DNA from: an uncultured Leptolinea sp.
GTDB taxonomy: Bacteria; Chloroflexota; Anaerolineae; Anaerolineales; Anaerolineaceae
Direction: 5' to 3'
Assembly (NCBI GenBank): GCA_903828565.1
Contig: CAIKMQ010000030.1
Location: 1 to 49,309 of the forward strand
Length of the DNA stretch: 49,309 nucleotides
Position numbers and translations under genes: made by a program. The notes beneath the pieces were generated by a model. The model did not search any database and had not been told where the DNA came from. It saw only the letters and a list, made by a program, of their open reading frames with translations. This document shows positions 6,262-49,309 of this stretch, piece after piece (position 1 is the stretch's first letter; the number at the start of each line of letters is the position of its first letter).

Positions 6262-7467
6262 CTACGCGCGCAAGCGCCGGGTGGTGCGCATCCAGGCTTT
6301 GGTGGGATTATCCGGTTTGGCTGCCCGGTCTTCCTCCCGGCTGACCATATAAGCCAGGTTTTCCACAACCAACGAGATCTCTTCGGCCGGCTTTGTCAGC
6401 ATGAATGGCTGGCCGTAATTGATCGCCTCAATCGTGATCCACGGCACGAACGGGATGATATGGCGGATCGGGTGATGCAGTGCGGTTTCGATATTCTTGC
6501 GTGCCAGGCCATTCTTTTCAAAGGTCCAGTTCAAGATCAGCTTGACCTTATCCATATCATAACCCAACCGCTTATAGGTTTCCATAGCGGCGGCGGCGGC
6601 TCGGACTGAAGCCATTTCCGGAGAGGTGATGAGTATAATCTCACTGGCAATATCCAGAGTGTTGTAAGAAATCTCGCGGAAGTCATGCGGCAGGTCCACG
6701 ACAATGTATTCATAGTGCCCGCGTAGCAGGTTCATGGATGCAGTAAAATGCTGTGGTGTTAGCAGGTCGGCTTCCGGCGGGAAGGTCGGGGCAGCAATAA
6801 AATCCAACCCGCTGTCGTGGTGATTGATGATGCTGTGCAGTGAAAAGACATCGATCTCTCCAGGGAGACGATTTCCGAGGTCTGCCCAGGTACGGCGTAG
6901 GGACCCATTCAGCATCAGTGCTACCTGGCCTGCGGTCAGCACCAGATCGAGGATGATGGTCGGGCGATCCCACAAGCCGTGTAGCGCCGCAGCCAGGTTG
7001 ACGGCTATGGTACTGCAGCCCAATCCACCGCGCAAGTTGTGCACCGCGATCACGTGCCCGTCGCCGGTATGCTGCAGTGCTTCTGTGGGCTTCCCGACTG
7101 CCTCTTTTTTGATGAGGTTGCTCACCCGCGCCAGAAGTTCAGGCGGAGCAAAAGGTTTGGTCATATAGTCATCCGCCCCGGCCTCAAAACCAGCCAGTTT
7201 TTCATCCAGGTCGGTTTGAGCGGTCAACAGGAGAACGGGAAGCCTGGCAAAGCGTGCATCCCGCCGCAATCGGCGGATCACCTCATAACCATCCATGCCG
7301 GGCATCATGACATCACAGATGATCAGATCGGGGATCAATACGGTTGCCTGGGCCAGGCCTTGAACCCCATCATCGGCGAAAGACAGTTCATAATCTGTCG
7401 ATTGCAAGGCATGTTCTACCATTTTTTGGTAGATATGGTCATCTTCGATAATTAGTATTCGCGTCAT
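6262..7467 (-). CDS. Response regulator receiver fused to CpaE/MinD-like P-loop ATPase domain
   Basis: 401 aa. Residues 1-120 are a CheY-like receiver with acidic pocket E8-D9-D10, phospho-acceptor Asp52 and Lys104. Residues about 140-390 are a SIMIBI-type ATPase domain of the CpaE/TadZ pilus-localisation type. The P-loop reads RGGLGCST (146-153), lacking both the signature lysine and the Walker lysine of the deviant motif KGGxGKST. ATP hydrolysis is therefore doubtful; pseudo-ATPase behaviour is known for TadZ/CpaE proteins. The start is set by AGGGAGA a few bases upstream; a longer start would run into the kinase gene. It lies 13 bp behind the hybrid kinase, which is its likely phosphodonor. 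No tad pilus genes are in the window. Confidence 0.88.
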   Translation of the reverse strand: MTRILIIEDDHIYQKMVEHALQSTDYELSFADDGVQGLAQATVLIPDLIICDVMMPGMDGYEVIRRLRRDARFARLPVLLLTAQTDLDEKLAGFEAGADDYMTKPFAPPELLARVSNLIKKEAVGKPTEALQHTGDGHVIAVHNLRGGLGCSTIAVNLAAALHGLWDRPTIILDLVLTAGQVALMLNGSLRRTWADLGNRLPGEIDVFSLHSIINHHDSGLDFIAAPTFPPEADLLTPQHFTASMNLLRGHYEYIVVDLPHDFREISYNTLDIASEIILITSPEMASVRAAAAAMETYKRLGYDMDKVKLILNWTFEKNGLARKNIETALHHPIRHIIPFVPWITIEAINYGQPFMLTKPAEEISLVVENLAYMVSREEDRAAKPDNPTKAWMRTTRRLRA

Positions 7468-7480
7468 ATCGCTTCTCCCT

Positions 7481-10471
7481 TTATTCAACGAACTCTGTAG
7501 AGAAGGTATTCAGGTCCTCGGCTGCACTCTTCAGGTCCTTTATTAAACCAGCAACCCCAATACTGCTTTTTACTTTTCCCTGCAACTCGATCCCTGCTGC
7601 TACTGTCGCAATCGCATTGGCCGAGAAATTAGCAGCAGCGCCTTTTAGAGAGTGGGCAGTTCGTGTCAGGCTTTCATAATCCTGTCGAGCCAGGGCTTCT
7701 TCCAATGCCCCTATCCTGGCTGGCAGATCTGCGGTGAATTCCAGCAGCAACCGTTTGAAGAAAGCCTTGTCATCCATAAATCTTGGTAAGGCGGTTCTCA
7801 GATCGATGGGAGGAGTCGTTGCCAATTTACTGTCATCCTTTCCTGTATCGGAGGCCTCAGGTGAATTTCCATGCGTCTTTTCATCGACCGCATCCTGAAG
7901 CCATTTCTGCAGGTTATTATAGAAATCCTGCAAGTCCAACGGTTTCGGTAAATAATCATCCATGCCAGCCGCCATACACAGCTCGCGATCGCCCTTCATA
8001 GCGTGTGCGGTCAATGCGATAATCGGCGTATGGCTGCCGGCGGGTTCTTTCGCCCGGTATTGCCGGGTGGCTTCAAAACCATCCATTTCCGGCATCTGGA
8101 CATCCATCAGAACAAGCGCGTATGGTTTCATTAACATTGCAGTCAACGCTGCCGAGCCGCTTTCAACGACATCCACGGCACAGCCGGCTTTTTGCAATAA
8201 ATGAACAACCAGTTTCTGATTGATGGGGTTATCCTCTGCCAGCAACACCGGCACATGACGCCGACTGATCTCTTCCAAAAAGTGAGCGGTGATCAACGCC
8301 GATGGAGGCTGGCCTTTCTTCGCTTCGATCTCATACTTACCCATGACTGTTAACAACATCTCATGCAGGTGATCTTTCTTTACCGGCTTGATGAGGTAAC
8401 CTTCACAACCCATGTTCAATAACTTGGCAGCGTCCCCGCGGCGGCCGATCGAGGTGAGGATGATTACGTGGATATCTTTCACCTCCTCACAGGCTTTAAT
8501 CTCTTCCAGGACTTGAATACCGTCTTTCATTGGCATCTGCATGTCCAGCAGCAGGATCTGGAAAGGATCGCCCTGTTCCTTTGCCTTTTGCAGATGATCC
8601 ACAATATGCAGGTTATCTTCAGTGGCTTCCGGCCGGCAGCCAAAGAGTTCCAATTCCAGATTGAGGATCAGGCGGTTGGTCGGGTTATCATCAACGACCA
8701 GAATGTGGGTATCTTTAATGTCATCTGCGTAGTAATCGGTCTCATCCACCTGGGTATTGCTTTTCTTGAATTCGACCGTGAACCAGAAAGTACTGCCGGC
8801 ATTCGGCTCGCTGAACAGCCCGATCTCTCCGTGCATCAATTCAATCAGCTGCTTAGAGATGGCAAGCCCTAAACCGGTACCGCCGTATTTCCGGGTGGTG
8901 GAGCTATCCACCTGGACAAAACGTTCGAAGATGCTGCCTTGCCGTTCAGGGGGTATACCGATCCCCGTATCGGTGACGCTGAATTTCAAAGTAATACTTT
9001 CTTCTGTTCCCCGGTGGTAGGCCAGGCGAAGAACCACCTCACCATGACTGGTGAATTTCACCGCGTTGCCCGTCAGATTCATCAAGACCTGCCGCACTCG
9101 TCCCGGGTCCCCGATTACGCGGGAGGGGATGTTCGGTTGCACCAGGCTGATCATTTCCACGCCTTTTGTCTCCACCCGCGGGGCGAGCGCTATAGCTACA
9201 TTTTCCAACAGGGCCCGCGGATCAAATTCTACTTCATCCAGCTCCATATATCCGGATTCGATTTTGGAGAAGTCAAGAATGTCATTCAACAGAGCGAGGA
9301 GAGCGTCTGCGCTTTCTTTGGCAGTACTCAGGAAATCCCTTTGTTCATTTGATAGCTCTGTCTCCTGTGTTAGTTCGATCATGCCGAGAATGCCGTTCAT
9401 CGGTGTGCGGATCTCATGGCTCATGTTTGCCAAGAATTCGCTCTTGGCGCGGTCGGCAGCTTCAGCCGCCCGCCTGGCCTGGAAAATGTCGCTGACATCG
9501 TGATACATCACGAAGGAACCGTACGCCCGTCCGCCAATATTCACGGGCACGCCAAAAATCTCCACATCGATCGCGGTACCGTCCCGATGGATGCGTTGGC
9601 CAAAATCATGGATCTTCTTGCCGCCTGCCATGTCTTCAGACATCTTTCGCGCCAGCTCGGTTTCCTTCTCTCCGACGATAAGTAGATCCACTTCTTTTTT
9701 AACTACTTCCTGCAATTGGTAACCAAACAATTGCGTGAATGCCGGGTTGCAGGCGAGAATACGCTGCTGATTGTCCAGAATCAACACAGAGATCGGGCTG
9801 TTGCTGATGAGGACTTCCAGGTATTCTTTCTGATGGCCGATCTCGCGACTGACGCGATACTCTTCGGTGGTATCCCGAATAATGTAAATGCTCCCGGGTT
9901 CACTGGTATCCAGCGTCATCGGATTGACAGTGATAGTGTGCCAACCGGGTATTGCTCGCAAACAAACATGCGTATCCAATGCAGGCATCTTGCCCGAAAC
10001 GTCCGCAAAGATATCATCGAATTTGCAGCAAAGGATCGCCTGGTAAGATAAACCGGTAGTCATAATGGCCGCTTTGTTGCAGCGAACGATCGTACCAGAG
10101 AGATCTGTCAATACGATCACATCCGCGACTGCATCAAAAATCGCCTCCCAGGTCCGTTTGGCATGGGTAATCTTCTCTTCCGTGGTTTTCTGTGCTTCAA
10201 TGACTTTGCGGTTCTCAACCAGTAGTTTTTGCAGCTCGACATTACTTTGCATCTGGCGAATTTGCATATCCTGGATCGGAGCCATTTTCGTATCTTCAAA
10301 GCGGCCAATACCATACCCGATGAGCGGATGCAGGATGATTAAGGCGACATAAAAATACCAGGGGGTACTGGGGGAGATCTGGTTCAGCATAAGCGAGAGC
10401 AACAACCCCACCATGCCGCCTGCCATTGAGTAGAAAGAGGTTCGTTTAGTATAGGGAGTTATTGGTGCCAT
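7481..10471 (-). CDS. Hybrid sensor histidine kinase with two PAS, two receivers and HPt
   Basis: 996 aa, membrane-bound. Two helices at about 15-55 are followed by a coiled coil (65-105). Two PAS domains span roughly 108-200 and 215-330. The HisKA domain has its phospho-acceptor His352 in SHEIRTPMNG. The HATPase_c domain carries N469 (LTGNAVKF), DTGIGIP and GGTGLGL. Receiver 1 has Asp643, receiver 2 has Asp790, and the HPt domain has His940 in AHSLKGAAANF. All elements of a full internal phosphorelay are intact. A GAGG ribosome site precedes the ATG. The gene is 8 bp behind ppk2 and 13 bp before the response regulator, so the relay output is probably that regulator. The signal is unknown. 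Confidence 0.94.
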   Translation of the reverse strand: MAPITPYTKRTSFYSMAGGMVGLLLSLMLNQISPSTPWYFYVALIILHPLIGYGIGRFEDTKMAPIQDMQIRQMQSNVELQKLLVENRKVIEAQKTTEEKITHAKRTWEAIFDAVADVIVLTDLSGTIVRCNKAAIMTTGLSYQAILCCKFDDIFADVSGKMPALDTHVCLRAIPGWHTITVNPMTLDTSEPGSIYIIRDTTEEYRVSREIGHQKEYLEVLISNSPISVLILDNQQRILACNPAFTQLFGYQLQEVVKKEVDLLIVGEKETELARKMSEDMAGGKKIHDFGQRIHRDGTAIDVEIFGVPVNIGGRAYGSFVMYHDVSDIFQARRAAEAADRAKSEFLANMSHEIRTPMNGILGMIELTQETELSNEQRDFLSTAKESADALLALLNDILDFSKIESGYMELDEVEFDPRALLENVAIALAPRVETKGVEMISLVQPNIPSRVIGDPGRVRQVLMNLTGNAVKFTSHGEVVLRLAYHRGTEESITLKFSVTDTGIGIPPERQGSIFERFVQVDSSTTRKYGGTGLGLAISKQLIELMHGEIGLFSEPNAGSTFWFTVEFKKSNTQVDETDYYADDIKDTHILVVDDNPTNRLILNLELELFGCRPEATEDNLHIVDHLQKAKEQGDPFQILLLDMQMPMKDGIQVLEEIKACEEVKDIHVIILTSIGRRGDAAKLLNMGCEGYLIKPVKKDHLHEMLLTVMGKYEIEAKKGQPPSALITAHFLEEISRRHVPVLLAEDNPINQKLVVHLLQKAGCAVDVVESGSAALTAMLMKPYALVLMDVQMPEMDGFEATRQYRAKEPAGSHTPIIALTAHAMKGDRELCMAAGMDDYLPKPLDLQDFYNNLQKWLQDAVDEKTHGNSPEASDTGKDDSKLATTPPIDLRTALPRFMDDKAFFKRLLLEFTADLPARIGALEEALARQDYESLTRTAHSLKGAAANFSANAIATVAAGIELQGKVKSSIGVAGLIKDLKSAAEDLNTFSTEFVE

Positions 10472-10479
10472 GCATTCCT

Positions 10480-11313
10480 CTATGCCTGTGCGGATTGTGC
10501 ATTCGGATCCAGCTGAGACGCATATTGCTCGATACCCTCGACTGGTTGAGGATATCGCATTCTTAGTTTCTCCAACTCATTCACCAGGATCTGCGCCACC
10601 ATTAAATTGCGATACCAGTTGCGGTCTGCAGGGATGGCATACCACGGCGCCCAGGGCTTGCTGGTTTTTTGCAGCACATCCTCATAGGCATGCATGTACT
10701 CTTTCCAATGGTTGCGCTCGCTCAAATCACCTGGGTTGAATTTCCACTGCTTGGCTGGGTCTGTGATCCGATCCAGCAGTCTTTCTTTCTGTTCCTCAGG
10801 GCTGATGTGCAGAAAGAATTTCAAGATCGTCACACCCTCATCCGCCAGCATTCGCTCAAATTCGCATATATGGCGGTAACGCTTTTTCCACACTTTTGCA
10901 GGTACCAGCTTGTGCACCCGCACCACCAGCACATCTTCGTAATGACTGCGATTGAAGATAACGATCTCCCCCTTGCCAGGCACCTGGCGGTGTATTCGCC
11001 AGAGGTAATCATGATCCATTTCCTCCGTGCTAGGCACTTTAAAGCTTGCCACACGGACACCTTGCGGGTTCACCCCTTCGAACACACTGCGGATCACGCC
11101 ATCCTTACCGCCGGTATCCATTGCCTGTAATACTATGAGTACCCGGTGTTGATGTTCAGCATACAGAATTTCCTGCAGTGATTCAAGCTTTTTATTTAAC
11201 TTTGCCAGCTCAGCCAGGCCATCTTTCTTCCCACCCTCAAAATGGGAGGTGTCACTGGCATCAAAATCCATCAGCCGGGGTGTGTTCTTAGCTGTGATCA
11301 GGTAAGGTTCCAT
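10480..11313 (-). CDS. ppk2: Polyphosphate kinase 2 family protein
   Basis: 277 aa. PPK2 enzymes transfer phosphate between polyphosphate and nucleotides, usually making ADP or ATP from AMP or ADP. The lid and P-loop regions are clear: QAMDTGGKDG (63-72) is the Walker A equivalent, FNRSHYEDVLV (120-130) carries Walker B, and KQWKFNPGDL and WKEYMHAYEDVL are family landmarks. The length fits the short single-domain class. The start is the ATG with GGAG eight bases upstream; the ATG 27 bases earlier overlaps a perfect TATAAT box and is unlikely to be transcribed. First gene of the run that continues into the hybrid kinase. Nucleotide preference (AMP or ADP) cannot be told here. Confidence 0.93.
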   Translation of the reverse strand: MEPYLITAKNTPRLMDFDASDTSHFEGGKKDGLAELAKLNKKLESLQEILYAEHQHRVLIVLQAMDTGGKDGVIRSVFEGVNPQGVRVASFKVPSTEEMDHDYLWRIHRQVPGKGEIVIFNRSHYEDVLVVRVHKLVPAKVWKKRYRHICEFERMLADEGVTILKFFLHISPEEQKERLLDRITDPAKQWKFNPGDLSERNHWKEYMHAYEDVLQKTSKPWAPWYAIPADRNWYRNLMVAQILVNELEKLRMRYPQPVEGIEQYASQLDPNAQSAQA

Positions 11314-11338
11314 AGTGCGCTCCGGGTGTGCATAATTC

Positions 11339-11344
11339 ATTATA
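11339..11344 (-). promoter_or_regulatory. Probable -10 box of the ppk2-kinase operon
   Basis: A perfect TATAAT on the minus strand would start transcription about 20 bases before the ppk2 ATG, leaving room for its GGAG site. The -35 region is poor. Confidence 0.5.
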
Positions 11345-18120: not shown

Positions 18121-18723
18121 TTAGTCTGTGACCGTACGGATCACGACTTTTTTTCTGAAGACATTGGTAAACAGGTCTGCTTTCTCAGAAGCCGCCTTTT
18201 CTTCTTCTGGCGCCGGGCATACCACCTTGCACCGAAGCAGAACCTCTTCCTGATCGATCAAACAACGCACTCCGCGGACACGGCACTCATGCGTCCGGTC
18301 AAGCCCGTCTGCCACCCGCAGCAGGGCAGCCAGACGGCACACCAGGGTTCGTTCAGCCAATTTCAACGCGGCGAAATGGTCATGCTTTTCTGAGGGGAGT
18401 GCCTTGCGGTGGTAGCGTGCGATCGAGCCGATGATCAGACGGGTCTTGCCGTCCAACGGCAGCAGCAGATTATCCACGATCATCTCCAGTGAACTCTTGT
18501 GATGCCCGCGCCATCCGCGGACCCAGCCAATATCGTGCAACAGCGCGGCATATTCCAGCAGATCCCGCTCCGCGTTGCCGAGCCCGTGCAGCGTTTCTAA
18601 TCCATCGAATAACTGCAAAGCTAGCAGCGTCACCTGTTCGGTATGGGTCATATCGCCCATGCAGGCCTGCGCCAGAGATGTCACCGCAGCGCGGGTGCTG
18701 TTGGTTGATAACTTCCTGGTCAT
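18121..18723 (-). CDS. HD-domain protein resembling the C-terminal part of Ppx/GppA
   Basis: 200 aa. Metal ligands of an HD phosphohydrolase are visible: His27, the pair His63-Asp64 in ALLHDIGW, His74/His75, and Asp139 in RVADGLDRTH. The RVADGLDRTH segment and its spacing are those of the C-terminal HD domain of exopolyphosphatase/pppGpp phosphatase, here as a free-standing protein without the actin-like catalytic domain. It is the last gene of the CHAD operon: its ATG begins one base after the stop of the phosphoesterase gene. A role in polyphosphate or nucleotide signalling is inference. Confidence 0.8.
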   Translation of the reverse strand: MTRKLSTNSTRAAVTSLAQACMGDMTHTEQVTLLALQLFDGLETLHGLGNAERDLLEYAALLHDIGWVRGWRGHHKSSLEMIVDNLLLPLDGKTRLIIGSIARYHRKALPSEKHDHFAALKLAERTLVCRLAALLRVADGLDRTHECRVRGVRCLIDQEEVLLRCKVVCPAPEEEKAASEKADLFTNVFRKKVVIRTVTD

Positions 18724-18724
18724 C

Positions 18725-19480
18725 TTAGCCCGAACCCTCCGTCAGTTGCATTGCCCGACACTCATCCAGGGTGACGGCCGCAGCCATCATACGGGTGTAC
18801 AAGTCCGGCAGACCGGCGGCACGAATGGCATCCACCGCGATCTGCAGGTTGTATTCCACCCGGTAAAATTGCGCGTCCACCCTGCCTTTGTGAATATCGA
18901 GGATACAGTAGGATGCCCGCGGATCGTGATCGATCGTCCGCCCGACGCTGCCAGGATTGATAAATACCGTGCTTCCGCTCTGCCGGGTGAATGGTTGATG
19001 GGTATGCCCGCACAGGATGAAATTGGCTTCTGTCATCCCTGCCAGTTCTGCCAGGCGTTCTTCCGCTGTATCCAACTGGATGGGGTCATCATTCGCTGCC
19101 GGACTACCGTGGGTCAGCAGGAAACGGTGTCCTTTGAACTTCAACAACATAGCCTGGGGCAGGTCATCCATATAAGCACGGTCCTTCTTTGAAAGCTGGT
19201 TATAGCTCCAGGCAAAAGGCTGTTGATCCTCAGGGATATCCTCAAAAGGTGTGCTTTTTACCAGCGGGCGTAAATCCATCACCCGCCGGTCAATATTCCC
19301 GTGGATGCACGGGATGCCCAGCTTGCGGATTGTTTTCACCACTTCATGCGGGAAGGCATTGAACTGCACCAGGTCTCCCAGGCACCAGAACCCTTGGGTT
19401 TTCAAAGAGCGCGCATGCGCCAGAACCGCTTCCAGCGCCGGCAGGTTGGCATGGATATCACTGATGATGGCTATTTTCAT
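18725..19480 (-). CDS. Calcineurin-like metallophosphoesterase
   Basis: 251 aa, cytoplasmic. The dinuclear metal site is complete: Asp8 and His10 in ISDIHAN, Asp36 in LGDLV, Asn62 in HGNID, His124 in LTHGSP, and His159/His161 in GHTHQP. It resembles the YfcE/MJ0936 class of small phosphodiesterases that hydrolyse non-nucleotide or cyclic phosphodiesters. Its ATG overlaps the stop codon of the CHAD gene (ATGA), and the HD gene starts one base after its own stop, so the three products are made in register. Substrate unknown. Confidence 0.9.
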   Translation of the reverse strand: MKIAIISDIHANLPALEAVLAHARSLKTQGFWCLGDLVQFNAFPHEVVKTIRKLGIPCIHGNIDRRVMDLRPLVKSTPFEDIPEDQQPFAWSYNQLSKKDRAYMDDLPQAMLLKFKGHRFLLTHGSPAANDDPIQLDTAEERLAELAGMTEANFILCGHTHQPFTRQSGSTVFINPGSVGRTIDHDPRASYCILDIHKGRVDAQFYRVEYNLQIAVDAIRAAGLPDLYTRMMAAAVTLDECRAMQLTEGSG

Positions 19481-20451
19481 TCTGCTGCTCCTTGTTGTTC
19501 TCCCGGATCACCAAAAGATATTCGGTGGGTGATCTCTGCCGGGTGATTAGCTTTGACGTGTAATTCCAACTCATCCCAGCTGGAACCTTTCGCGGGGGAA
19601 TCCCACGCGGTAATAAACGCGGTGTACATACGTGCGCGGTGATTGGCTCGGTTTTCCATCCACAGTTGAATACCCGGCGGATAGCCGGCACCCGTGACCG
19701 ATTGGGATTTAAGCAGCACATCCCAGGCATCACAATCATGGATGGCGCCCAGCATCTCCTGCACACCACGCACACGCTTCAACCACGGTTTAAAGCCGTT
19801 CGTTTCCAGCGGCGCAAAGATCTCCAGTGTGTATCGCAGCCTCTTGGCGGCAATGCGCATGGCATGCAGTTTTTCTATCTGCTGCGGGTCCCGCATCACG
19901 TCCGTAAAGCTAATTAATCGTCGCAGCCGGGTACGGATGGCTTGATCCGCAAGCAACCGCAGCGGTGTGGACGGCTGGTTCATTGGTTCTACTGCCAACC
20001 TTTTAAGTACTTCAGATGCTGTGGCAACCGCCGTGTTTGCTTTGAACAGGTGGATCAATGTGCGTACTTCTTCCCCGCTTTGTGACCGTTGGCGCTCCAG
20101 CGCTGTCAGCAGCTCATCCAGGCCGGCCAGGCGGGACTCCCCTTCTCGCATGAGCTGGAAGCGGCGCAAAGCCTGCATTTGGATATCCAGATCACGCGAA
20201 TTGCCCAGAGCCAGCGTGACATTGCGTACCTGTTCCTGGAATTTCTGGCAGATGCCAGCGGGCAGTACCGGATCAAAATAAGCCAGAACAGCTCGCAACC
20301 GCCGTGACGCCACCCGCATGCGGTGGATGCATTCCAGGTCCGTCCCGGCAGCCGCGCCATCACTCTCAGCATGCAGGACGTTCAGTTGAGCCAGCATTAA
20401 ACCAGCCCCAAAGCACTTCGCGGCAGCATCCGGCTTCATTTTCCATTTCAC
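19477..20451 (-). CDS. CHAD domain-containing protein
   Basis: 324 aa, a single CHAD domain of two four-helix halves. Each half has the basic histidine-containing signature: HRMRVASRRLRAVL (43-56) and HAMRIAAKRLRYTL (about 195-208). CHAD domains are established polyphosphate-binding modules, often found at polyP granules. The start is taken as GTG because it sits exactly six bases after an AATAAT box preceded at 17 bases by TTGATT, suggesting a leaderless mRNA; an ATG four codons later is the alternative. It heads the operon with the phosphoesterase and HD genes. There is no fused CYTH triphosphatase domain, which is the common partner. Confidence 0.88.
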   Translation of the reverse strand: MKWKMKPDAAAKCFGAGLMLAQLNVLHAESDGAAAGTDLECIHRMRVASRRLRAVLAYFDPVLPAGICQKFQEQVRNVTLALGNSRDLDIQMQALRRFQLMREGESRLAGLDELLTALERQRSQSGEEVRTLIHLFKANTAVATASEVLKRLAVEPMNQPSTPLRLLADQAIRTRLRRLISFTDVMRDPQQIEKLHAMRIAAKRLRYTLEIFAPLETNGFKPWLKRVRGVQEMLGAIHDCDAWDVLLKSQSVTGAGYPPGIQLWMENRANHRARMYTAFITAWDSPAKGSSWDELELHVKANHPAEITHRISFGDPGEQQGAAE

Positions 20452-23147: not shown

Positions 23148-24626
23148 TCAATCCGGCTCTAGCTCATCATCGTCAGCTTCCACTGCCAAATCGTCCAGGC
23201 TCAATCTCAGCACGGTATCACCCCAGGTGCGGTGCCGATATTCCAACAACAAAGCGGTAATCTCTCCCCGCTTTGTTTTCGCGGACCAATCCACCATGTC
23301 GATGTACTTCTTCAGTGGGATGGTCACATTCCCCAACAGGAAGGTCAGCATCTCGAGGTTGTTGTCTTCTGCCAGCTTCTGGATGCTGAGCCTGGCATGT
23401 TGGATGAGGAACTGCTCGTAAACCAGCTTGTATTCCTCGCTCAGTTCATACGGGAAGCGCAGCCGGCACAGCGCGATCCGGGCTTTATCATACAGGACCT
23501 GGTCTGGTCTTTCCTCATGATCAGGATACCCTGCAAAGAAGGTGTCATATTCGCTGATGTTCCGCGCGCCGCCTGAGAGCAGCCGGGTCGCCCAGTACCC
23601 GTATGCTGAGGAGTAGTTGGTGGTTTCTCCCCCAGCATCCTCTAGTTCCCGCACATATTCATAAGGGATGTAGACCCGGCAGAGAAACAGTCCGGTTGTG
23701 TCTATGATCTGAAGGTAAACATCAGAGAAGCCATGCTCAGACCCTAATGTTGTTCCTTCCCCTTGCCAGAGAGTCACCTCCGCTACACACTCCTGGGTGA
23801 AGTTGTACCCAACGTGTTTGATTCTGGCAGGTAATTTGAGAACCACCTTTTGGCTGAACGGATCGGTAATCTTCTGGTCCAAAGAGAAGGCTCCAGACCC
23901 AATCTCCGTCACTCCCTGTGGGATCACTACCGACTGCAGGCTGCGGCAGTCACGGAAGGCATCACTCCCGATCTGCGTCACACTATCCGGGATCTCCACC
24001 GACTGCAGGCTGTGGCACCAATAGAAGGCGTTCTCCCCAATCTCCGTCACACCCTGTGGGATCACTACCGACTGCAGGCTGTGGCACCAATAGAAGGCGT
24101 TCTCCCCAATCTCCGTCACACCCTGTGGGATCACTACCGACTGCAGGCTGCTGCAGCCAGCGAAGGCATTCTCACCTATCTGCGTAACACTATCCGGGAT
24201 CTCCACCGACTGCAGGTTGTCACAAAACTGAAATGCACTATCCTCTATCTCCGTCACACCCTGCGGGATCACTACCGACTGCAGGCTGGCGCAATACTTA
24301 AATGCACTATCCTCTATCTCCGTCACACCCTGCGGAATCACTACCGACTGCAGGCTGCTGCAGCCCCAGAAGGCTCCGTCCCCGATCTGCATCACCCCCT
24401 CCGGGATCACCACCGACTGCAGGTTGGCACAACCACTGAAGGTGGAATAACCTATCGCTGTCACCCCCTGCGGGATGACCACCGACTGCAGGCTTTCGCA
24501 CCCTGAGAAGGCTTCACTCCCGATCTGCGTCACCCCCTCGGGTATGACCACATGAGCGTCATTTCCATTGTACTTTGTTAATATACGCTTGCCGTCTCGC
24601 TCTTCAAACCGCATGTTGTCTGCCAT
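23148..24626 (-). CDS. BspA-type leucine-rich repeat protein
   Basis: 492 aa. Residues 28 to about 250 are ten 23-residue repeats of the form IPxGVTEIGxxAFxxCxSLQSVV (LRR_5/BspA class), which stack into a solenoid used in protein or surface binding. The C-terminal half (250-492) has no repeats; residues about 420-470 (NNLEMLTFLL, ITALLLEYRH) look like degenerate ankyrin helices. Unlike classic BspA there is no signal peptide or anchor, so it may stay in the cytoplasm. GGAGGAGGG precedes the ATG. The gene stands alone, its stop codon lies inside a short dispersed repeat, and related hairpins flank it on both sides. Function unknown. Confidence 0.88.
   Translation of the reverse strand: MADNMRFEERDGKRILTKYNGNDAHVVIPEGVTQIGSEAFSGCESLQSVVIPQGVTAIGYSTFSGCANLQSVVIPEGVMQIGDGAFWGCSSLQSVVIPQGVTEIEDSAFKYCASLQSVVIPQGVTEIEDSAFQFCDNLQSVEIPDSVTQIGENAFAGCSSLQSVVIPQGVTEIGENAFYWCHSLQSVVIPQGVTEIGENAFYWCHSLQSVEIPDSVTQIGSDAFRDCRSLQSVVIPQGVTEIGSGAFSLDQKITDPFSQKVVLKLPARIKHVGYNFTQECVAEVTLWQGEGTTLGSEHGFSDVYLQIIDTTGLFLCRVYIPYEYVRELEDAGGETTNYSSAYGYWATRLLSGGARNISEYDTFFAGYPDHEERPDQVLYDKARIALCRLRFPYELSEEYKLVYEQFLIQHARLSIQKLAEDNNLEMLTFLLGNVTIPLKKYIDMVDWSAKTKRGEITALLLEYRHRTWGDTVLRLSLDDLAVEADDDELEPD
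23877..24545 (-). repeat. 69-bp tandem repeats encoding the leucine-rich repeats
   Basis: Ten 69-bp units in phase with the protein repeats. Units 24001-24069 and 24070-24138 are identical base for base, which points to a very recent duplication or gene conversion. Repeat number is likely to vary between strains. Confidence 0.9.
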
Positions 24627-47451: not shown

Positions 47452-49309
47452 TCAGTTACTCGGCATGGTGGGTAGGATCACCAGCACCGGTTTACTACTG
47501 TCGGTGTGGCTGTCGTTACCCAGCTGACCCCAGGTGTTGTCACCCCAGCACATGGCATTGCCATCCGGCAGCAGCGAGCAGCTGTGATGTGCGCCTACAC
47601 CCAGCGCGGTGATCGGATCAAGACCAATCACCTTCACGCCACCGGTGCTGTTTGTGGATTTACCGTTACCCAGCTCACCATTGGAGTTTGCACCCCAGCA
47701 GTAGACTTCCTGGTTCAGGTCGATGGCGCAGGCATTCGCCTGGCCGGTGCCAACAAAGATGGCATCCACGATATCAGCTACTTCCACCGGGGTATTATCC
47801 AGACCCCAGCAGTTCACCTTGCCGTCCAGCCCGGCTGCGCATCCGCCAATCGTGAAGCGGTTGCCGGAGATATTGAGGATATTGCTTAACCCTTCAATAC
47901 CGAAAGACTGCTTATTCTTCCACAGGGATACCAGACCGCCATTCTCACCGACCAGGTCGTTCTGGCCGCCCGAGATCTGGGTTGGCAGTGTGGAGAAGTC
48001 CGCGGCTACAGCTTTCTTCTGGCTGGTGAGAGTGCCGTCATTCAACTGACCGGACATATTCTTTCCCCAGCACCAGATGCTGCCGTCTTCAATGTTCGCA
48101 CAGTTGAAGTGCTCACCGGCAGTGATATCTGTAGCCAGGCCGGGCAATCCCTGAACCTGGACAGGTACATTGCTGTTCATTGTATTGGCATCGCCGAGCT
48201 GGCCGTAGACATTGCTACCCCAGCACCAGATGGTGCCATCGATCTTCAAAGCACAGTTGTGGTTGGCGCCAACGCTCAGGCGAAGGACGCTATCCAATCC
48301 CTCTACGAACACGGGGATCGCGCTGTCAATGAAAGTTGCATTCCCTAACTGGCCAGAGGTGTTCAAGCCCCAGCAGATCACCAGTCCATCAGCGGTCGTC
48401 ATGCAGCTGTGGCCAATGCCACTGCCGATCAACGATCCACCGGTTACCGGGATGAGCAGAGGAGCCGCTCCACCACCACCGCCGCCGCCACCACCTTCGC
48501 AGGCATCACCAAGGCCATTGCCGTTGGTATCTGCCTGGTCAGGGTTGTAATCCAGCGGGCAGTTATCCACGCAATCAGCTACGCCGTCAGCATCCACATC
48601 GGTATCGGCTACACCGCATCCACAGACACCTGGATCAACCTTGCCGATGTCAGCCGGGCAAAGGTCATTGCAGTCCGCAGTGCCGTCGTCGTCGCTATCC
48701 GTGTCGGGTACACCACAACCACACACACCCGGATCCGATTTGGCAGGATCGTCGTCGCAGATCTCATTGCAGTCCAGAACTCCATCACCGTCAGTGTCAT
48801 TGTCAGGTATTCCACAACCGCAGACACCAGGGTCAGTCTTGGCAGGGTCGTTGTCGCAGGTTTCATTGCAGTCGGCAACACCGTCACCATCACTGTCCGT
48901 GTCGGCTACACCACAACCGCAGACACCTGGGTCAGTCTTGGCAGGATCGTTGTCGCAGGTTTCATTGCAGTCGGCAACACCGTCACCATCACTGTCCGTG
49001 TCGGCTACACCACAACCGCAGACACCAGGGTCAGTCTTGGCAGGGTCGTTGTCGCAGGTTTCGTTACAGTCTGCTACACCATCCCCATCGCTGTCGGTGT
49101 CGGCCACACCACAACCGCAGACACCAGGGTCAGTCTTGGCAGGGTCGTTGTCGCAGGTTTCGTTACAGTCTGCTACACCATCCCCATCGCTGTCGGTGTC
49201 GGCTACACCACAACCGCAGACACCTGGGTCAGTCTTGGCAGGATCGTTATCGCAGGTTTCGTTACAGTCTGCTACCCCATCGCTGTCGCTGTCGGTGTCG
49301 GCCACACCG
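47452..49309 (-). CDS. Secreted calcium-binding-repeat and RCC1-repeat protein, N-terminus outside window
   Basis: Partial: the frame is open to the window edge, so signal peptide and any earlier domains are missing; 618 or more residues are visible. First comes a series of 33-residue repeats (CNETCDNDPAKTDPGVCGCG plus DTDSDGDGVAD), of thrombospondin type-3 style: the DxDxDGxxD loops bind calcium and the paired Cys probably form disulfides. Five are near identical and at least two more diverge. A nine-glycine linker follows. The C-terminal 350 residues are about seven RCC1-type blades (SxGxxHxCxLxxDGxxxCWGxNxxGQLGN). The stop is 20 bases before the terminator. An extracellular adhesin or surface-binding role is inferred. 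Confidence 0.87.
   Translation of the reverse strand, partial: GVADTDSDSDGVADCNETCDNDPAKTDPGVCGCGVADTDSDGDGVADCNETCDNDPAKTDPGVCGCGVADTDSDGDGVADCNETCDNDPAKTDPGVCGCGVADTDSDGDGVADCNETCDNDPAKTDPGVCGCGVADTDSDGDGVADCNETCDNDPAKTDPGVCGCGIPDNDTDGDGVLDCNEICDDDPAKSDPGVCGCGVPDTDSDDDGTADCNDLCPADIGKVDPGVCGCGVADTDVDADGVADCVDNCPLDYNPDQADTNGNGLGDACEGGGGGGGGGAAPLLIPVTGGSLIGSGIGHSCMTTADGLVICWGLNTSGQLGNATFIDSAIPVFVEGLDSVLRLSVGANHNCALKIDGTIWCWGSNVYGQLGDANTMNSNVPVQVQGLPGLATDITAGEHFNCANIEDGSIWCWGKNMSGQLNDGTLTSQKKAVAADFSTLPTQISGGQNDLVGENGGLVSLWKNKQSFGIEGLSNILNISGNRFTIGGCAAGLDGKVNCWGLDNTPVEVADIVDAIFVGTGQANACAIDLNQEVYCWGANSNGELGNGKSTNSTGGVKVIGLDPITALGVGAHHSCSLLPDGNAMCWGDNTWGQLGNDSHTDSSKPVLVILPTMPSN
48580..49309 (-). 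repeat. 99-bp tandem repeats encoding calcium-binding loops
   Basis: Units recur every 99 bases (for example the GTCAGTCTTGGCAGG block at 48832, 48931, 49030, 49129 and 49228). The outermost copies differ at only a few bases; the copies nearest the glycine linker are diverged. The array continues past the window end. Confidence 0.92.

Follow-up and report, generated by a model that had tools for sequence, protein, structure and literature searches.

A CHAD-metallophosphoesterase-HD gene unit in Leptolinea and its relatives as a candidate polyphosphate-hydrolysing system

How might a bacterium mobilise its stored phosphate when its genome encodes a polyphosphate kinase and a search for the catalytic domain of exopolyphosphatase finds none? 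This question is raised by three adjoining genes on contig CAIKMQ010000030.1 of an uncultured Leptolinea sp. (Chloroflexota, Anaerolineaceae; assembly GCA_903828565.1), whose positions 1 to 49,309 are referred to here as the window. The genes code for a CHAD protein, a calcineurin-like metallophosphoesterase (MPE), and an HD protein, and they probably specify a hitherto unrecognised system for the breakdown of stored phosphate. Their architecture, conservation, fusions, genomic context, and motif residues lead us to regard them, with reasonable though not high confidence, as one polyphosphate-hydrolysing unit, hydrolysis being its predicted activity.

The three genes and their proteins

The unit occupies the minus strand of the window, and a gene for a polyphosphate kinase of the PPK2 type is found at a separate locus:

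CHAD protein, 20451-19477, minus strand, 324 amino acids, GTG start; first gene of the unit, predicted polyphosphate-binding part
MPE (calcineurin-like metallophosphoesterase), 19480-18725, minus strand, 251 amino acids; four bases (ATGA) in common with the CHAD gene; predicted catalytic part
HD protein, 18723-18121, minus strand, 200 amino acids; starts one base past the MPE stop; stand-alone relative of exopolyphosphatase domain III
PPK2, 10480-11340, minus strand; PF03976, E 7.7e-76; separate locus, functional context only

In Pfam searches, the CHAD protein matches PF05235 (E 1.3e-42, 146.8 bits against a cut-off of 25.6) and the MPE matches Metallophos_2 (PF12850, E 9.1e-31, above cut-off); the MPE also reaches 70.6 bits with TIGR00040 (YfcE, cut-off 56.25). 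The HD protein, in which the segment RVADGLDRTH is located, matches both Ppx-GppA_III (PF21447, E 4.1e-16, 59.8 bits against a cut-off of 27.3) and HD (PF01966, E 1.2e-8). Neither PF02541, the actin-like ASKHA catalytic part of Ppx/GppA, nor a CYTH/TTM domain has a Pfam match in any of the three proteins. A first-pass annotation of this DNA had placed a phosphoesterase between the CHAD and HD proteins, had assigned RVADGLDRTH to a Ppx C-terminal domain without its actin-like part, had described the genes as overlapping by four bases or lying one base apart, and had located PPK2 about 7 kb away. The domain matches and the minus-strand coordinates bear it out on all these points, PPK2 being 6.8 kb from the unit with intervening genes on both strands. 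The stoichiometric production it had deduced does not follow from the overlap, which suggests coupled translation and nothing more. A scan for promoter-like consensus sites gave 2 sites versus 2.2 in shuffled sequences, and a terminator scan was likewise at shuffle level.

The HD protein is domain III of exopolyphosphatase, coupled here to another catalytic domain. A profile built from 13 stand-alone HD proteins retrieves the C-domain of exopolyphosphatase 8JGT/8JGO from the PDB (E 1.5e-29), and an HD alignment search matches 110 of 400 genomes of the phylum at E 1e-6, many of them in frames of Ppx-like length, about 500 residues. In one family (f30) the HD domain adjoins CHAD genes, three loci inspected more closely (L078, L082, L169) have CHAD joined to a portion of the Ppx actin domain, and at L103 Ppx is followed by CHAD. 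CHAD and the HD domain are therefore old partners, and what is special in the present unit is the phosphoesterase. In f30 (L078-L105, L169) the HD pair reads HN. The idea that the HD residues decay when the domain is not linked to an MPE holds in part only: 5 of 27 HD domains at L078-L105, mostly from one family, are intact, as are several Ppx-attached copies.

The genome of the window (2.22 Mb, 48 contigs, 99% complete) contains one CHAD match and one PPK2 match in a whole-genome search. A PPK1 match was not found in it, nor was a match to the Ppx actin domain in a search that was positive in 10 of 14 control genomes. Since this actin part was not found in the genome, the HD protein was rejected as a remnant of a local Ppx gene. 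A CYTH-like open reading frame (ORF) on another contig was spotted by eye only. The genes for PhoU and two kinase-like proteins lie together on contig C8 and CHAD-MPE-HD elsewhere as a block, which is also present in its one relative of the same genus (L032). The two thymidylate-kinase-like genes on C8 (L075; 9551-10300 and 8856-9554, minus strand) stand in tandem behind phoU.

Distribution within and beyond the family

We searched 121 genomes of the family for the MPE and retrieved, in addition to the window, the 36 best-matching places; L058 and L065-L067 were set aside as other MPEs by context and tree, which leaves the MPE clade in 33 genomes including that of the window. CHAD lies directly upstream of the MPE in 32 of these 33, a count made up of 30 automatic assignments and of L032 and L041, two loci with overlapping CHAD and MPE genes; the remaining locus, L059, stops at a contig edge, and at L054 CHAD reads as two ORFs. 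The HD gene follows the MPE directly in 14 genomes, once (L064) as a remnant of 102 residues. PhoU is encoded nearby in 27 of 33 and two thymidylate-kinase-like genes upstream in 22, the fullest order being pstS-pstC-pstA-pstB-phoU-kinase-kinase-CHAD-MPE-HD; at L040, L041, and L048 the pst genes lie downstream on the opposite strand. Because the unit stands by pst-phoU in most of its relatives in the family, its likely job would be the mobilisation of stored phosphate during phosphate limitation. Genes that the simple ORF caller had missed or split (CHAD in L047; L171, L172, L175, L179) were re-annotated.

Although a polyphosphate kinase occurs in 96 of the 121 genomes, the Ppx actin domain matches in only 13, in 12 of them above cut-off, and in none of the 33 genomes with the unit. 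This lack of overlap has a hypergeometric P of 0.012 (0.018 without the sub-cut-off match), kinship not being corrected for. PPK2 is found in 31 of 33 unit genomes versus 63 of 88 others, a weak association (Fisher P 0.007, again without correction for kinship). In three relatives (G068, G086, G092; L150-L152) a complete Ppx stands behind pst-phoU-CHAD in the place of MPE(-HD); in G003, a fourth genome of their genus, no CHAD was called beside Ppx (L107), and G116 has the order CHAD-HD-Ppx (L153).

Other genes accompany the MPE in some relatives. A part resembling SAM hydroxide adenosyltransferase, identified by Pfam (PF01887/PF20257) on the L033 copy and by a profile built here on the others, is present in 12 of 33, fused to the MPE in L038, L039, L042, L043, L044, L045, L046, and L052 and after HD in L033, L035, L036, and L059. 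Two convergent PPK2 matches adjoin the MPE at L034 (contig C1 of G039, 6542-7207 and 7363-8037, minus strand). Among 41 thymidylate-kinase-like genes of the relatives (L033-L064), the P-loop reads GIDGSGKST in 21 and G[TSN]DGVGRST, with Lys changed to Arg, in 20, and the pair in the genome of the window has one of each; these pairs therefore seem to combine a canonical copy with an altered one.

Outside the family, we used our own profiles to annotate the best 80 places among the matches listed for GTDB genome contigs. In 21 of these, CHAD, HD, Ppx, or PPK1 is either part of the MPE protein or encoded no more than four genes away from it. Three of the 21 (L174, L182, L188) are family genomes; the other 59 places, mostly Bacteroidota by title, are without such a link. 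The 21 include 14 fusions:

CHAD-MPE-HD single protein: L189 Methanomassiliicoccales (809 amino acids), with PPK1 before and Ppx after
CHAD-MPE-HD single protein: L194 and L247 Bathycorpusculum (781 and 777 amino acids), with PPK1 before and Ppx after
CHAD-MPE: L177 Methanocalculus and L179 Methanoculleus, each then followed by Ppx
MPE-HD: L171 and L172 Synergistota
MPE-HD: L173 Chloroflexota
MPE-HD: L176, L184, and L205 Planctomycetota
MPE-HD: L180 and L183 Omnitrophota
MPE-HD: L187 Methanophagales

Among these best 80 places, all three parts thus form one protein in three archaeal genomes, while two-part fusions occur in other archaea and in four bacterial phyla. A Pfam run on ten proteins confirmed nine fusions; L172, L180, L184, L205, and L247 are assigned by our own profiles alone. 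The gene order is CHAD, MPE-HD, Ppx, PPK1 at L176 and PPK1, CHAD, MPE-HD at L183. The first-pass annotation had called for a search for conserved CHAD-phosphoesterase-HD neighbourhoods. Such neighbourhoods are conserved in the family and come with fusions in several phyla, so that the gene order is not limited to close relatives, patchy as it is outside the family (two of 12 top phylum-level places).

In another protein from Omnitrophota (L181:2822-4912), the MPE is joined to a ROK domain (Pfam) behind PPK1 and CHAD. Polyphosphate glucokinases are ROK proteins, so a link of this domain to polyphosphate is imaginable.

The same genomes provide a control in the form of 20 paralogous MPE loci, none of which carries a CHAD, HD, Ppx, PPK1, Pst, PhoU, kinase-like, or SAM hydrolase label, within flanks of about 1.5 kb compared to about 7 kb for the family loci; at one of them (L258) no MPE was called. 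Linked MPEs group apart from unlinked ones on a phylogenetic tree, with 3 changes over 116 rows by a quick method without bootstrap. The unlinked L185 falls inside the linked part, and L164, L180, and L181 are placed at the base of the other part. The tree contains 31 of the 33 clade-bearing genomes of the family; it omits L001-L031 and L077-L149 (repeats or short), the duplicates L077, L174, L182, and L188, L037 and L059 (MPE truncated or not called), short fragments, further copies of the MPE at unlinked loci, and roughly one in two of the unlinked loci past the first ones. MPEs beside pst genes at L159, L161, and L191 were considered as further support and rejected, as they are located in the other part of the tree.

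Predicted activity and its alternatives

CHAD domains bind polyphosphate or its granules and are known as stand-alone proteins from polyphosphate operons (PMC6537752). In E. coli Ppx, chain binding is attributed to the C-terminal part, and a natural variant that lacks this part favours short chains (PMC3411833); removal of the C-terminal part from a Deinococcus enzyme lowers its activity (PMC11234463). In yeast, the metallophosphatases Ppn1 (calcineurin-like) and Ppn2 (PPP-type) hydrolyse polyphosphate and mobilise it in phosphate starvation (PMC6973038, PMC7381174). These two are eukaryotic and vacuolar, and they are likened to the MPE as metallophosphatases. They are not known to carry CHAD or HD domains.

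Taken together, these activities suggest that CHAD and the HD protein would hold the chain and that the MPE would cut it. CHAD would bind or thread polyphosphate; the HD protein would bind the chain as domain III does in exopolyphosphatase, with a binuclear phosphoesterase as its partner instead of the actin-like part; and the MPE would cleave phosphoanhydride bonds of the held chain, in exo or endo mode, releasing phosphate or shorter chains. In the genome of the window, the unit might then be the main polyphosphate hydrolase beside PPK2. A physical complex, polyphosphate as its substrate, the role of the HD protein, and the regulation of the unit are predicted here from sequence.

Residues and fold are consistent with this proposal. 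The MPE of the window keeps D8, H10, D36, N62, H124, H159, and H161 in the metal-site pattern D-H, D, N, H, H-H, residues known as metal ligands in this class of enzymes. The full set of seven is also present in 21 of 31 aligned members from the family and in all 20 linked members outside it. The HD motif H...HD...H...H...D is intact in the HD protein of the window (H27, H63, D64, H74, H105, D142). An MPE profile retrieves 3RQZ (E 2.1e-38), 3QFM, and 1NNW from the PDB. In a model of the fused protein L189 (30-row alignment, mean pLDDT 91.8), the CHAD segment resembles the CHAD-polyphosphate structure 6QVA (Z 26.6, 3.0 Å, 292 residues), the MPE segment finds its best solved match in 3RQZ, a metallophosphoesterase from Sphaerobacter thermophilus (Z 29.8, 33% identity), and the third segment matches domain III of PPX/GppA in 6PC0 (Z 22.1).

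Several findings weigh against a polyphosphate-hydrolysing unit. The MPE clade is missing from 88 of the 121 family genomes, and HD does not adjoin the MPE in 19 of the 33 that have it (L037 being at a contig edge). Within the family, an association of the unit with PPK1 was rejected (13 of 33 unit genomes versus 35 of 88 others). Of 12 places outside the family, taken from the best at phylum level, only G472 (PPK1-MPE, L157) and G150 (PPK1-HD-MPE, L164) are linked; two more have pst genes alone nearby. One or two of the seven metal positions are altered in 10 of 31 aligned family MPEs (six N62D plus H159N, three N62D alone, one D8E), and the pTM of the L189 model is 0.66, so that the arrangement of its domains is unreliable. 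Among solved enzymes, the closest to which an activity has been assigned is the Ap4A hydrolase 3QFM, and eight clusters outside the family contain both the unit and Ppx (L172, L175, L176, L177, L179, L189, L194, L247). The MPEs with N62D plus H159N form a subclade (L057, L060-L064) that still adjoins CHAD.

The most serious competitor, which we consider a real if clearly minor possibility, is that the MPE hydrolyses a nucleotide polyphosphate such as Ap4A or pppGpp, that the HD protein is a nucleotide phosphohydrolase, and that CHAD only tethers both to granules, so that the unit would couple stored polyphosphate to nucleotide signalling. SapH (Spr1479, 3QFM), an asymmetric Ap4A hydrolase, has the same fold as the MPE (Z 28.4, 236 residues), although at 25% identity and in a chain without a CHAD or HD domain. 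On a hand-made list of 26 HD domains linked to an MPE, which does not include the L064 remnant or L153 (no MPE), the HD motif is intact in all but L048 and L049 (24 of 26), and the HD protein may therefore be an active enzyme. The two thymidylate-kinase-like genes in 22 of 33 genomes also hint at nucleotides. In contrast, the conserved neighbours are PPK1, Ppx, CHAD, and pst-phoU, and for 3RQZ, the closest solved MPE, the structure listing names no activity. A purely regulatory or structural unit, with MPE and HD as sensors or granule scaffolds that do not hydrolyse polyphosphate, would agree with the altered metal positions and with the absence of HD beside many MPEs; retention of all seven positions in the window, in most family members, and in every linked member outside the family makes it improbable.

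Non-orthologous replacement pure and simple, in which MPE(-HD) would be just another exopolyphosphatase that has supplanted Ppx within the pst-phoU-CHAD operon, is a narrower form of the hydrolysis explanation whose likelihood overlaps with it, and we regard it as conceivable rather than probable. Ppx in the same operon place in G068, G086, and G092 and the zero overlap between the 33 unit and 13 Ppx genomes speak for it, whereas the clusters with both systems outside the family indicate that simple replacement is not the whole story and that the unit may have another role. A merely local neighbourhood arising by chance in a gene-dense genome could appeal to the short intergenic gaps that are common in bacteria, but it was rejected in view of the fusions, the gene order in several phyla, and the 20 unlinked paralogues, and we give it practically no credence.

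Elsewhere in the window, 23148-24626 (minus strand) encodes a protein with many near-identical repeats of the SLQSVVIPQGVTEIG type, leucine-rich-repeat-like by eye, and 47452-49305 (minus strand) an RCC1-repeat protein.

Place among known polyphosphate systems

The polyphosphate-hydrolysing unit proposed here has domain III (PF21447) in common with Ppx/GppA, and in three relatives Ppx stands in its operon place behind pst-phoU-CHAD, but the actin-like catalytic part of Ppx/GppA was not found in the three proteins or in the genome of the window, and a calcineurin-like phosphoesterase is present instead. It likewise has the CHAD domain in common with the CHAD phosins and the CHAD-CYTH tripolyphosphatases (YgiF); in place of the CYTH/TTM domain, which was not found in the three proteins, the coupled enzyme is again the calcineurin-like phosphoesterase. 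In this respect the first-pass annotation, which had proposed a polyphosphate-linked hydrolase unit apart from the CHAD-CYTH and Ppk-Ppx pairs, agrees with the gene order, the fusions, and the ppk1/ppx/pst context in several phyla, though not in its stoichiometry. No description of a CHAD, calcineurin-like phosphoesterase, and HD unit was found in the open-licence literature, judged mostly by its listings.

In the literature, microbial polyphosphate metabolism is regarded as consisting of kinases and exopolyphosphatases only (PMC13318637), endopolyphosphatase activity is said to range from archaea to mammals, unlike bacteria (PMC12210182), and a survey obtained no significant hit in archaea for known endopolyphosphatases (PMC6864096). 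The polyphosphate-degrading activity of Haloferax volcanii described in PMC13318637 is probably not due to this unit, the H. volcanii control genome being without a CHAD match. We tentatively suggest that CHAD-MPE-HD may represent a class of prokaryotic polyphosphatases still without a name, probably of the endo type and common to archaea and bacteria, in which a clamp of CHAD and Ppx domain III would feed a calcineurin-like binuclear site. Such an enzyme would work alongside Ppx in genomes that have both and by itself in those that lack Ppx.

If this were true, a gene would be at hand for prokaryotic endopolyphosphatase activity. The conserved and sometimes fused CHAD-phosphoesterase-HD unit, with its places in ppk1/ppx clusters and next to pst-phoU, offers a concrete candidate for a missing hydrolase. 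The occurrence of the chain-binding domain of Ppx next to a different catalytic domain suggests that it is a transferable module, and with a single protein of 800 residues that joins all three parts, the question of a prokaryotic endopolyphosphatase becomes testable.

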